From Boothiomyces macroporosus (taxonomy: Eukaryota > Chytridiomycota > Chytridiomycetes > Rhizophydiales > Terramycetaceae), in NCBI GenBank assembly GCA_027604185.1, contig JADGKB010000127.1, positions 1 to 34,773 of the forward strand: 34,773 nt of DNA, read 5' to 3'. The translations under genes were made by a program, and so were the position numbers. The notes below the pieces were generated by a model. The model did no database searches, was not told the origin of the DNA, and saw nothing but the letters and a program-made list of their open reading frames with translations. Numbering within the stretch: the stretch's first letter is position 1; each line of letters begins with the position of its first letter. Below, one piece after another: positions 1,842 to 33,635 of this stretch.

Positions 1842-3200
1842 TCAATCATCTTCTGCCTTTTCGGAAGATGTTTTTTCGTGATGGAACTTTCTCAATAGTG
1901 TGTCCACTTCTTCTACACCTAACGGTTTAATATCTGCTAATTGTTTGATCTGTTGAGTAACTTCCTTAATTTCAGCATCAGACAATGCCAAATCCAATTG
2001 TTGAGCACGGTTCTTTACTGCATTCCAGCCAGTTAAACGGTGACCAATAGAAACATATCTAGTCATACCAAAATCATGTGGATCAAGAATTTCATAGGTG
2101 CTAGGATTGTTGAGGATGGCCTTGGCGTGAATACCTGCTTTATGGGTGAATGCACAATATCCAGTAATGTAGTTGTTGAATGGAACTTGAATCTGTACCG
2201 CTTCAGCTACCAAATTTTCAACATCTCTCAGCTTATCTAGCTTGTACTTGGCCATCACACCTTCTCTGTCTGCAGTATACATTCTAGCTACCAGTCCTCC
2301 AAGTGGAGTGATTCCATTTCTTTCTCCAATACCAAGTACAGAAGTATCAATGTGGGTTGCTCCTGCTTCTAACGCTATTGTCACTTTAAAAATTACCAGC
2401 GTATGCATTTGCAATGGCACAACCAGTATCATTGTGAAAATGAGTTTCAATGTCACAAGAAACCACACCTCTCAAAGTCCTAACCAATTCATAGACTTGA
2501 CGAGGGTCTGCGCAACCGACTGTATCAGCGATACCCACACGATTCACTCCAAGCTAAAATTAAATTGCCTTTACCTTATCAACAGTTTTGTACAAATTCA
2601 GTAGATCAACCAAATCACTTCTGAAAGAATCTTCACTAGAAAACCGAACTTCTAATCCTTTTGATTGAATAAATTTGATAACTTCGGTTGCTTGCTTGAT
2701 GATATAATCCATATCCTTTCCATGTGAAAACTCACGCAAGAACGAGGAGGTGCCGATTACCACATCCAAACCATCAACACCCGTTTCAACAGCTATTCTG
2801 GCATCATCCATGTGACAGCGAACATGGGTCAAAATCTTGGCTTTGAGGCCCAGGTTGCAAATCGCGATACAATCTAAGCGACTTTGCTCAGATGCTGCTG
2901 GAGAAGTGATTTCAATGTATTCGACGCCAAACTCGTCTAACGCCTTGGCAATCTTAATCTTGGTTTCTTGGTCAAAAAATGCATTCGCAAACTGTTCACC
3001 CTCTGGAATTTAGCACGCATATTACCTCTTAAAGTGGACTCAATAATTGAAAAGTTCTTTACTCTGGAGATCAGATCTGAATATCGTGGATGTACAACCG
3101 GTATCTGCGATGCTTTCCCGTTGCTGACAGCCTCCTTGGTACCATCATTCTTCTTTAAGCGCTTGGTTTCAGTCATGTTGGATCCTTTCGGCGTTTTCAT
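1842..3200 (-). CDS. LYS20: homocitrate synthase, 4 exons
   Basis: Condenses acetyl-CoA with 2-oxoglutarate to homocitrate, the first step of the fungal alpha-aminoadipate route to lysine. Introns are 3025-3003 (23 nt), 2574-2554 (21 nt) and 2396-2375 (22 nt). Joining the exons gives 430 aa from the ATG at 3200, or 422 aa from the second ATG at 3176, close to the usual fungal length of about 430. Visible family motifs are STLREGEQF (about residues 55-63, metal and 2-oxoglutarate site), the metal-binding HFHNDTG (239-245) and [11 protein letters not shown]. The first intron splits the REG codons and the third splits the Ala codons of AYAALEAG, so both junctions fall in invariant sequence. There is no mitochondrial presequence, but a basic KRLKK patch sits near the N-terminus. 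It is divergent from the importin gene and shares its 395-nt promoter. Confidence 0.96.
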
Positions 3201-3595
3201 CTTTTTTAAATAATTTCAGTGGTGATAAAGGCTCCAAATCTCCAAGCTGATGTGGTGATTATCGTCACGTGATGGAGATGCCAAAACACCAGTCAGTTGT
3301 AAAGTTTACTCTAGATAATTTGATGTATCAGGGCAAGAATTAAAATTGAGCAACAAATCTTTCGTATTGACACGGTACTGGGTAGTGGGCAGTCAATGAT
3401 GGGAAAATTTGAACAATTTAATTTTTTATATTGCAGTCTAAAATCAATAAGCAACCTGCTCTGATCAATTAATAAGAAATTCAGAAGAGCAAAGGGTTTG
3501 CAAGGGCCAGTTTGCTACACCAAATTTTAGGTTTTTTTTACTTGGATTTTTTGAGCTGAAAAAACTTTCAAGCCACAAAACTTTTTTTTTGTAGA
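3201..3595. promoter_or_regulatory. divergent promoter, LYS20 and KAP121
   Basis: These 395 bases lie between two divergent starts. They hold a perfect bHLH-type palindrome TCACGTGA at 3265-3272 and a run of ten T ending in GTAG just before the importin ATG. I see no gene here. The T-tract plus AG could be a 5' UTR splice acceptor, but no donor is obvious. Confidence 0.5.
3265..3272. promoter_or_regulatory. E-box palindrome TCACGTGA
   Basis: A perfect 8-nt palindrome matching the Cbf1/bHLH class of fungal sites. With the preceding base it reads GTCACGTGA. It lies about 70 nt upstream of the LYS20 start and about 330 nt upstream of the importin start. Function is inferred from the motif only. 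Confidence 0.4.
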
Positions 3596-31866: not shown

Positions 31867-32001
31867 TAAATTCATCCTTTTATCGATATTGGCAATAGAG
31901 AGATATCAGATGCGCGTTGGGATGCGCCTATCTTGAGATGCTGGGAGTGCAAAATCAGAAACTGCAAGACGCCACCAGAAACTTTTTGCCGTGGAAATTC
32001 A

Positions 32002-33635
32002 ATGAATTTAAACATCAACGTTTACAGAGGAATAGCTGCTTGTTCAATAGTATATTTCACATATACTGCACTGCAATTCAGTAAAAGTAACTGATAATTG
32101 ACATAGCCACACATCCGAATTATCCCTTATATTCAAACAAATTATCAACCGGATGGATGGGGATTGTGGACAACAGCGATGCACAGTATTCTTCCTTTAG
32201 GAATAACATCCCAATTCTACTGGTAGTCATGATTGTATGGACTTTGATTAATTATCTTTTGAAGTTCATAAACAGAGGATACCAACCATTAAATGCAAAT
32301 ACCACAAAGCAAACAGTATCATTGGTACTATCGGTTATATTTCTATCCGCTGTATTTGGTGCATCAATACTAAAGATACTTTTTATTATTATAATCAATT
32401 ATCTGATAGCAAGTAGTACCAAATCACTGGTTGGACCGATATTAACATGGATTTACTGTATCGCTATTCTATTTGCAAATGACTACTATGGCGGATACAA
32501 ATTCAGCTCCATAGGATTTGACTACTTGGATTCTATAAGGGGAATAGGAATGCGATGGCATATCACATTTAATTTTTGCATCTTGAAAATGATTTCATAT
32601 TCAATGGACAGGTAATTAATTGTAATTCAGGCACTGGGCTCTGAATGGGGAAGGGGAACTTGATTATGAAAAACACTGTGGCAAGTGTTCAGAGTGTAAT
32701 GATTTTCAATGCCAGAAAGCACGGATTATTAAACCAACCAATTACTCTCTGTTCAATTACCTTGTTTACATGCTATACGCGCCACTATACCTTGCTGGTC
32801 CGATAATATCTTTTAATGACTTTACCAACCAAATGAACTCGAGAAAGACAATCAATATCAAAACCACAATAATGTATACCATCAGATGGTAAGTAATGTT
32901 AATACAGGATTGGGATTGTTTTATTAATGGAATTGATGATGCACAATTTGTATGTTGTAGCTATAAAAAACGCAAAAGCATTCAAAGGATTCTCTTCACT
33001 GGAAATCTATTGCTTGGGTTACTTTAACTTGAAATTCATTTGGTTGAAACTAATGATAATTTGGAGATTCTTTAGAATGTGGGCAATGTATGATGACATT
33101 GAAACTACAGAGAACATGACTCGGTGTATTACTAATCAATATTCTGCCCAGGAATTCTGGAAGCACTGGCATTCATCTTACAACAAATTCTTGATTAGGT
33201 ACTTGTATGTACCATTAGGAGGTAAACAGTACAAGATGCTCAACACTTTTTGTATATTTACTTTTGTTGCTATTTGGCATGATATCAATCTGCAATTGCT
33301 TGCTTGGGGATGGCTAATATCCGTATTTATATTACCAGAAATCATTGGTACTAGACTATTTTGTACTCCTAGGAACAAAGAAAAGAGCTGGTACTTGGAT
33401 GTATGCGCACTCGGTGGTGTGTTTAACCTATTACAAATGATTACAGCAAATTTAGTAGGTTTTGCAGTTGGTATAGACGGTATAATTGAAATGTACCACG
33501 AAATGTGGAATTATGAAGGTAAATAATACTAAGATAGGCGTATGGTTTATTATAGTGCTCTTGATTAGTTTATATTCTTATGTTCAGTGTAGTTTTTACT
33601 ATAATCGTAAAAAAGAAACTAAATACAGGGAATAG
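32002..33635 (+). CDS. GUP1: Gup1-like MBOAT O-acyltransferase, copy B, 5 exons
   Basis: Second Gup1-type membrane-bound O-acyltransferase, 518 aa, on the opposite strand and about 23 kb from copy A. Introns are 32087-32106 (20 nt), 32612-32630 (19), 32889-32907 (19) and 33519-33537 (19). Matching blocks are VDNSDAQYSSFRNNIP, SMDRHWALNGEGE, APLYLAGPIISFNDF, FWKHWHSSYNKFLIRYLYVPLGG and IWHDINLQLLAWGWL with the catalytic His. The last exon adds a terminal membrane segment. Copy A has introns after SMDRYWSLN-region, DFTLQ and FLIR that are missing here, and this copy has one at IRW that copy A lacks. The start gives a short N-terminus that aligns with copy A from TKNIKYF. The frame is open upstream to 31870, without another ATG. 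Confidence 0.92.

Follow-up and report, generated by a model that had tools for sequence, protein, structure and literature searches.

Probable major-spliceosome introns of 18-23 nucleotides in the genome of the chytrid Boothiomyces macroporosus

Ultrashort introns are known in ciliates, in a nucleomorph and in mikrocytids, and apparently have not been described before in a fungus of the kind considered here. The DNA analysed, hereafter the window, is one entire contig (JADGKB010000127.1, or C127; 34,773 nucleotides (nt)) of the chytrid Boothiomyces macroporosus, a member of the Terramycetaceae within the Rhizophydiales. Its genes appear to be interrupted by stretches of 18-23 nt with the ends GT and AG. 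The assembly (GCA_027604185.1) contains 15,203,306 bases in 216 contigs (15.2 Mb).

The introns of Stentor coeruleus measure 15-16 nt. They resemble those of the window in being uniform and AT-rich, in the fixed position of the branch A (the 10th-11th nt in Stentor) and in the canonical U2 and U6 boxes that accompany them. Stentor is reported to conserve the N-terminal domain of Yju2 but neither the N-terminus of Isy1 nor the plug of Cwc25, and Slu7 and Prp18 are listed as undetected there (PMC9505925). The N-terminus of Isy1 is likewise altered here, where the first Isy1 intron is ambiguous. On the other hand, the introns found here are mostly 19-22 nt long, place the branch A at position 14-15 and carry a strong YTRAY motif, Slu7 and Prp18 are encoded, and the Cwc25 plug is kept. 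The nucleomorph of Bigelowiella natans (18-21 nt) has an equal length range with a narrow spread. It is, however, an algal nucleomorph whose introns show no branch-point signature and donors limited to GT(A) (PMC2483917), whereas the present ones belong to a 15.2 Mb fungal genome and have a clear branch motif. The introns of mikrocytids (16-17 nt) are also narrow in length and conserved in sequence. These organisms are reduced parasites; M. mackini has 224 introns, and the spliceosomal proteins detected number 17-19, whereas 254 such introns occur here in 234,773 nt and all six protein factors sought are present.

Paramecium (about 25 nt) also has many genes with short introns, but it is a ciliate, and P. 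tetraurelia is described as lacking a branch signature. The microsporidian Encephalitozoon cuniculi combines short introns (mean 35.8 nt), a conserved branch and a fungal lineage; microsporidia, however, have few introns and longer ones than those reported here. Yarrowia lipolytica leaves 2 nt between the branch motif and the AG, without a polypyrimidine tract. The same fused arrangement is found here, since 2-3 nt separate motif and AG and a polypyrimidine tract would not fit; Yarrowia, in contrast, is intron-poor, with introns rather long for its group, whereas introns of about 20 nt are dense in the present genome. In a comparative study, the signals of very short introns tended to be degenerate, E. 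cuniculi and T. vaginalis being the exceptions (PMC2483917). The present introns combine a weak donor with a strong branch motif. For scale, a survey of fungal intron evolution calls the 63 bp of Cryptococcus relatively short (PMC8476143). An initial annotation of the window had compared its introns with the Bigelowiella nucleomorph and some ciliates. The list was incomplete, as Stentor and the mikrocytids have shorter introns. The same annotation knew of no fungus with such a normal class. Among the papers listed, the open-access literature searched gave no counter-example: introns of this kind were described neither for a chytrid nor for any other fungus outside the microsporidia; most subscription papers lay outside that search and absence from print is unproved.

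The stretches are very probably U2-type (major) spliceosomal introns of a Terramycetaceae-type chytrid, shrunk to near the physical minimum and organised as one fused signal. At the level of sequence, every defining U2-type feature examined fits: the preference for GT-AG, a branch motif that matches U2, proteins restored by excision, and genes for U1, U2 and U6.

The length class was measured with a length-blind decoder, in which a three-periodic fourth-order coding model is interrupted by introns treated as fixed-cost jumps of 10-150 nt, without length preference and without any motif. It was run on the window together with the first 200,000 bases of another contig of the assembly, C1 (234,773 nt in total). 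The score floor for gene models was 12 in this run, 10 in a motif-learned run with introns up to 200 nt, 6 in a motif-learned run with introns up to 60 nt and in the independent set, and 3 in the parse of the window, where introns were restricted to 17-45 nt; lower-scoring models overlapping better-scoring ones were dropped before counting. In the length-blind run 103 of 248 GT-AG introns are 18-23 nt long, with 24, 47, 18 and 12 calls at 19, 20, 21 and 22 nt, whereas 14 decoy end pairs gave 6-22 of 227-279. The counts for GC-AG ends (14/242) lie within the decoy level and those for AT-AC ends (19/279) show no excess. GT-AG parses served to refine the coding model in five rounds, to the slight disadvantage of the decoys, but the first training round, on long open frames alone, already placed 105 of 244 GT-AG introns in the class. 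The peak is present in both parts of the input (window 18/40, C1 85/208). It is replicated in 15 loci on 13 other contigs (50,081 nt, unused in training; L001 and L043, which lie in the window, and the overlapping or duplicate loci L027, L029, L030, L032, L034 and L042 were omitted), with 20 of 35 for GT-AG and 1-4 of 27-52 for nine decoys. The class that had been proposed from the sequence of the window is therefore real and lies far above chance.

Outside 18-23 nt, the density of GT-AG calls is 1.07 per nt of length, compared with 1.64-1.93 for the decoys. In the length-blind run the other lengths up to 150 nt do not exceed the decoys, so that a second, equally large class of ordinary introns gives no sign of itself in that range. 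The 18-23 nt class may accordingly be called the standard one, as had been suggested, but it is not the sole one. Once the motif was learned, still without length preference, the class accounted for 192 of 269 introns in the run up to 200 nt and for 254 of 282 in the run up to 60 nt (window share 36/41). The latter run comprises 113 gene models and 166,344 nt of coding sequence, with at least one intron in 87 models. By simple proportion from 254 in 234,773 nt, the genome would hold some 16,000 such introns. The parse of the window gave 20 models with 50 introns, of which 48 are 18-23 nt long and 28 of those 19-20 nt, in agreement with the mode of 19-20 nt reported at first. The initial set of 65 introns in 16 models was upheld in kind but not reproduced in full: the minus-strand MBOAT-like gene at 7.2-8.7 kb and COX13 are not fully resolved.

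Of the 103 introns of this class called without a motif (the motif-free introns), 70 carry YTRAY at 2-3 nt from the AG, against 73 of 2659 exonic GT..AG stretches of the same length (Fisher p ~1e-72); the spacing between motif and AG is 2 nt in 36 and 3 nt in 34 introns. GTAA opens 56% of the motif-free introns and 8% of the exonic controls. The relative entropy of the donor at positions +3 to +6 is 1.04, 0.26, 0.07 and 0.32 bits, so that the donor is little more than GTA. In the motif-learned run up to 60 nt, the donor leans to GTAANT (most frequent among the 15 commonest: GTAATT, GTAAAT and GTAAGC), G occupies position +5 in just 44 of 254 introns, and phases 0, 1 and 2 occur 112, 81 and 61 times. 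Branch distances were counted in the 234 of these 254 introns with a branch score above 2. The branch A is intron position 14-15 in 199, the intron ends 5-6 nt after it in 195, and the acceptor is the first AG downstream of the branch in 220, which bears out the early remark that branch site and acceptor are nearly fused. Introns of the U12 type have the donor consensus [AG]TATCCTT and the branch consensus TTCCTTRAY. The commonest donors here do not match the U12-type pattern; U11 and U12 were not searched for.

The excision of these stretches restores conserved proteins. The most detailed case is TOP2. The introns from position 10695 onwards were called both by the motif-learned run up to 200 nt and by the window parse, and the two introns flanking the smallest exon by the spliced model and the window parse:
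10114 to 14732, plus strand: TOP2, 1457 amino acids (aa), 11 intron sites (spliced model, alignment and window parse)
10179 to 10199, plus strand: intron, 21 nt, within the RPDTYIG motif
10200 to 10204, plus strand: exon of 5 nt (TCCTG) flanked by two introns, restoring the conserved RPDTYIG
10205 to 10223, plus strand: intron, 19 nt
10367 to 10406, plus strand: 40-nt site, one 40-nt intron in the motif-learned run up to 60 nt
10367 to 10387, plus strand: left half of the 40-nt site, a complete 21-nt intron (window parse)
10388 to 10406, plus strand: right half of the 40-nt site, a complete 19-nt intron (window parse)
10695 to 10714, plus strand: intron, 20 nt
10817 to 10836, plus strand: intron, 20 nt
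11333 to 11352, plus strand: intron, 20 nt
11821 to 11842, plus strand: intron, 22 nt
12774 to 12794, plus strand: intron, 21 nt
13291 to 13311, plus strand: intron, 21 nt
13687 to 13708, plus strand: intron, 22 nt
14247 to 14265, plus strand: intron, 19 nt

RPDTYIG, which aligns with human TOP2, is rebuilt by excising introns of 21 and 19 nt around the five-base exon. Exon 1 alone (21 aa) finds TOP2 chains in 8 of 10 matches (best E 4e-4). The alignment with human TOP2 covers the first 1135 of 1457 residues; eight of the eleven sites are visible in it, all flush and gap-free. A 24-nt call of the window parse was rejected as wrong, since it would delete GKLLNVRE, which aligns with human TOP2. 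At the 40-nt site the two halves abut without an exon between them and each has its own donor, branch motif and acceptor; the site is possibly a pair of adjacent or nested introns.

Four further genes of the window match known families once spliced:
1842 to 3176, minus strand: LYS20 homocitrate synthase, 422 aa; introns 3003-3025 (23 nt), 2554-2574 (21) and 2375-2396 (22) (motif-learned run up to 200 nt and window parse)
20818 to 21723, plus strand: CFAP300 (flagellar), 274 aa; introns 20958-20976 (19), 21089-21108 (20), 21436-21456 (21) and 21519-21539 (21) (window parse)
25715 to 28991, minus strand: NAT10/Kre33, 1072 aa; introns 26933-26951 (19), 26507-26526 (20) and 25941-25959 (19) (window parse)
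3596 to 7060, plus strand: KAP121/importin-5, 1092 aa; nine introns, all 19-23 nt (window parse)
3773 to 3795, plus strand: KAP121 intron 1, 23 nt
4007 to 4029, plus strand: KAP121 intron 2, 23 nt
4468 to 4487, plus strand: KAP121 intron 3, 20 nt
4646 to 4665, plus strand: KAP121 intron 4, 20 nt
4893 to 4912, plus strand: KAP121 intron 5, 20 nt
5271 to 5289, plus strand: KAP121 intron 6, 19 nt
5915 to 5936, plus strand: KAP121 intron 7, 22 nt
6050 to 6068, plus strand: KAP121 intron 8, 19 nt (49 nt, 6020-6068, in the motif-learned run up to 60 nt)
6181 to 6200, plus strand: KAP121 intron 9, 20 nt

LYS20 aligns with 3ivs, which we take to be the fission-yeast enzyme, at 681 bits, gap-free and flush at all three junctions. 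The CFAP300 model covers profile positions 4-246 of 246 (E 7e-79). NAT10, compared with its first 1035 of 1072 residues, aligns with yeast Kre33 over 5-1014 (1332 bits). KAP121 matches importin-5 at 731 bits over residues 12-1064, with small gaps in places; two of these, 2-3 residues long, lie at or next to junctions 1 and 2. The lengths first reported for TOP2 (1457 codons, 11 introns) and KAP121 (1092 codons, nine introns) agree with these models.

Every part of the splicing machinery sought in this genome is encoded. The U2 small nuclear RNA (snRNA) is present in two copies, both with GUAGUA, and the U6 snRNA carries ACAGAGA. A long frame next to one of the U2 genes (L022, contig C80) resembles a hAT-type transposase. 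The U1 snRNA scores 68.8 bits, just below the Rfam cut-off of 69.5, and its 5' end ACUUACCU is intact. Slu7, Prp18, Isy1, Cwc25 and Yju2 are encoded and, together with U2AF65, complete the six protein factors sought. The U2AF65-like protein (best of 25 matches 230.7 bits, below the whole-protein cut-off) is read with internal stops, as introns would give. A loss of Slu7 and Prp18 as in Stentor was considered and discarded, both being encoded. The genes for Slu7, Prp18, Isy1 and Cwc25 bear 18-23 nt introns themselves, and the Yju2 frame has none. The Cwc25 locus occurs on two contigs (L033 on C49, L034 on C100), identical over 1300 of 1300 compared bases, as an uncollapsed haplotype or a recent duplication would be. 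In the Prp18 gene (L028 1765-1827, contig C27) a stop-free 21-nt intron splits WPIGVDSVGIHE, and a reading in open frame takes the intron for protein. An apparent insertion in the conserved loop of Prp18 was dropped as a protein change for this reason, and the ab initio counts will miss such stop-free introns.

In yeast, the shortest natural distance from branch to acceptor is 10 nt, or 7 nt without Prp18, and Prp18 and Slu7 are dispensable at short distances; structural work cited in the same source treats Prp18 as a ruler for the minimum distance (PMC10711555). Counted identically, the distance here is 5-6 nt, with Prp18 encoded. The retention of Prp18 and Slu7 at this distance would contradict the view of Prp18 as a ruler and is worth testing.

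In the yeast C complex, the N-termini of Cwc25, Yju2 and Isy1 contact the branch helix and the branch A (PMC8022279). Homologues were ranked by likeness to the protein of this genome, in a database clustered at 90%, and the best 120 were compared, out of 262 for Isy1, 5874 for Yju2 and 6093 for NAT10. Isy1 starts here with MAPKTLAQKQE in place of MARNxEKA. Among the best 120, 76 have the canonical pattern, two nearly so (P0196, P0225), 36 are models starting further in, four entries (P0125, P0187, P0217, P0236) are aberrant, and two differ, namely Boothiomyces, which likewise starts MAPKTLAQKQE, and Globomyces, which starts MANNQKEKQ. No hidden canonical start was found, as AR[NQ], EKA, KAQ and RFR are absent from all three forward frames of L031 over its first 1500 nt, where split exons could escape. 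Yju2 reads NKYIPPSYNPNVQ where 95 of the best 120 read NKY[FYI]PPDFDP. The other 25 show mostly minor departures, such as PPNFDP, with the remainder canonical; the larger departures are those of Boothiomyces, Globomyces, Gorgonomyces and nine environmental proteins:
P0243-P0247, P0260, P0279, P0315 and P0327: environmental proteins with a more strongly altered Yju2 N-terminus

As far as these comparisons go, the association between the Isy1 and Yju2 changes and the tiny introns is a correlation within one clade.

Among public proteins, the nearest NAT10 is that of Terramyces sp. JEL0728 (95%, equal length), followed by Globomyces sp. JEL0801 (75%) and then other chytrids. In view of these NAT10 matches, a saccharomycete, a rozellid, an aphelid and a sanchytrid were discarded as candidate sources. 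Isy1 and Yju2 are 96% and 98% identical to those of Boothiomyces sp. JEL0838, their closest homologue. Terramyces and Boothiomyces both belong to the Terramycetaceae, Rhizophydiales. With Terramyces, Boothiomyces and Globomyces as the best proteins and U1, U2 and U6 genes in a 15.2 Mb assembly, the early assignment to a fungal nuclear genome is supported. Terramyces NAT10 (P0001) is uninterrupted across all three NAT10 junctions and Boothiomyces Isy1 (P0121) across four of five Isy1 junctions; the introns are thus probably already within public gene models. The public Globomyces NAT10 (P0002) has an extra in-frame CRYNLLIPLV, which reads like a retained short intron.

These relatives bear on the novelty of the finding. 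The trait may be ordinary across the Rhizophydiales clade and unremarked in public gene models, which is compatible with the introns being what they are taken to be here. The continuity of the Terramyces and Boothiomyces proteins, the insertion in Globomyces NAT10 and the altered Yju2 N-termini of Globomyces and Gorgonomyces speak for such a spread, whereas the open-access literature offered no text on such intron lengths in a chytrid and the relatives are known here from proteins alone. This is a serious possibility, somewhat short of even.

A far less probable alternative is that the introns are real but longer, with neighbouring GT and AG as their true ends and the 18-23 nt lengths a product of the gene finder. 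Automated calling is indeed fallible, as the 49-nt call in KAP121 and the 24-nt call in TOP2 show, and the Boothiomyces protein implies a first Isy1 intron of 49 nt. However, conserved residues abut on both sides of the junctions in TOP2, LYS20 and CFAP300, which leaves no room for longer introns, and the GT-AG density outside 18-23 nt lies below that of every decoy. Longer ends are therefore very unlikely to be the general explanation.

Several observations nevertheless weigh against short U2-type introns as a complete account. The strict motif (YTRAY N2-3 AG) is absent from 33 of the 103 motif-free calls, some of which may be false. The counts of both motif-learned runs and of the window parse are partly circular, and the motif-free counts are those of the length-blind run, its split into window and C1, the independent loci and the motif scoring of the 103 introns. 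All 51 introns of 18 or 21 nt in the motif-learned run up to 60 nt contain an in-frame stop, because the finder is blind to stop-free ones. Among the calls of other lengths, 24 of 145 bear the branch motif, roughly a sixfold rate compared with the exonic stretches, and some of them are thus probably real longer introns. One intron of Isy1 measures 46 nt (L031 1970-2015, contig C39), has the usual branch motif and is spliced at the identical point in the Boothiomyces protein. At the 5' end of Isy1 (L031 1434-1530, contig C39), an intron of 22 nt is modelled and one of 49 nt is implied by the Boothiomyces protein, so that the exact N-terminus is uncertain, and neither reading gives MARN; several intron-like pieces overlap in this segment. 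A changed U1 was considered as the cause of the weak donor +5 and rejected: its 5' end is canonical although G is found at +5 in so few donors, and a changed U1 does not explain donor recognition. The GGG plug at the N-terminus of Cwc25 is intact (MGGGDLNLKKSWHP), which weakens the parallel with Stentor; in Stentor the N-terminus of Yju2 is kept and that of Cwc25 lost, the reverse of the situation here. The intron counts, finally, cover 234,773 + 50,081 nt of 15.2 Mb.

Removal from DNA, or skipping by the ribosome, is hardly credible in place of RNA splicing. The uniform short length recalls the short internal eliminated sequences (IESs) of ciliates, which are TA-bounded and removed from DNA. 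The present stretches, in contrast, are GT-AG bounded in the length-blind run, lack that TA hallmark and carry a branch motif complementary to the GUAGUA of U2, in a fungus with spliceosomal genes; we know of no such DNA elimination in fungi. Sequencing errors or pseudogenes that break frames and are masked by the GT-AG search can practically be set aside: nothing was found in their favour, errors would not favour GT-AG, 19-22 nt and a branch motif, and TOP2, NAT10, KAP121 and Prp18, genes expected to be needed, are all alike affected.

The other genes of the window, from the same parse, are the following:
7792 to 8218, minus strand: MBOAT-like gene, weak partial model (score 8.8); intron 8155-8173 (19 nt)
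8914 to 9847, minus strand: RRM and cyclophilin protein (PPIE type), 304 aa; intron 9222-9240 (19); also by profile match
14762 to 15010, minus strand: weak partial model (score 6.3) where COX13 had initially been placed; intron 14840-14860 (21)
15279 to 16378, plus strand: gene without assigned family; introns 16050-16072 (23) and 16184-16204 (21); a 36-nt call, 16331-16366, is doubtful
16510 to 18116, minus strand: diacylglycerol/sphingosine-kinase-like gene (DAGK_cat), 515 aa; introns 17980-17998 (19), 17681-17700 (20) and 16953-16972 (20); also by profile match
19883 to 20644, minus strand: Fra10Ac1 homologue, 240 aa; introns 20272-20291 (20) and 20002-20020 (19); also by profile match
22289 to 22788, plus strand: weak model (score 9.7), no assigned family; introns 22339-22358 (20) and 22446-22466 (21)
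24035 to 24824, plus strand: membrane-protein gene, no assigned family; introns 24260-24278 (19) and 24435-24455 (21)
30377 to 31207, plus strand: NUDIX (NADH pyrophosphatase type), 270 aa; intron 30622-30639 (18); also by profile match
32229 to 33526, plus strand: MBOAT acyltransferase, partial model; introns 32612-32630 (19) and 32889-32907 (19); also by profile match

The Fra10Ac1 homologue and the PPIE-type cyclophilin are presumably homologues of spliceosome-associated proteins. The genes at about 7229-8726 (minus strand) and 32091-33526 (plus strand), near opposite ends of the contig, are similar by eye, and the plus-strand one matches MBOAT. Two similar neighbouring frames at 18303-18809 and 18996-19517 (minus strand) encode small secreted-looking proteins, the first modelled intronless and the second an open frame. 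Between 22931 and 25689, three consecutive pairs of similar frames resemble tandem genes for many-pass membrane proteins, and the model of the middle one has two short introns. In the window, neither the Rfam scan nor the tRNA scan gave a match.

Each intron would function as a single fused unit, made of a GTA donor, a linker of a few bases, YTRAY with its A at position 14-15, and an AG ending 5-6 nt later. U1 and then U6 would pair with the donor, and U2 with the branch motif that nearly adjoins it. Branching would yield a lariat loop of about 14-15 nt, and the next AG would be joined with no need of a polypyrimidine tract. The altered N-termini of Isy1 and Yju2, whose yeast counterparts touch the branch helix, might help the active site to accept so tight a loop. 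In a wider and tentative scenario, which we hold with rather more doubt than confidence, most introns of an intron-rich flagellated fungus became units of about 20 nt while U2AF65, Slu7, Prp18 and Cwc25 were kept, alongside lineage-specific changes at the N-termini of Isy1 and Yju2. If this is true, the Isy1 change would be convergent with that of Stentor, the tips of Isy1 and Yju2 would represent a general way of adapting to tight lariat loops, and a branch-acceptor distance of 5-6 nt in the presence of Prp18 would contradict its role as a fixed ruler.

How short a spliceosomal intron can become is still an open question. Work on it has so far concerned ciliates, a nucleomorph and reduced parasites, in which small introns often accompany unusual biology or a reduced spliceosome. 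The present case comes from the fungi, the kingdom whose spliceosomes have been studied best, and all the factors sought are encoded. It also has practical weight. Many genes of the clade may be broken by gene finders and splice aligners whose shortest permitted intron is 20-30 nt, given an intron in 87 of 113 models, and stop-free introns of 21 nt would be misread as protein.

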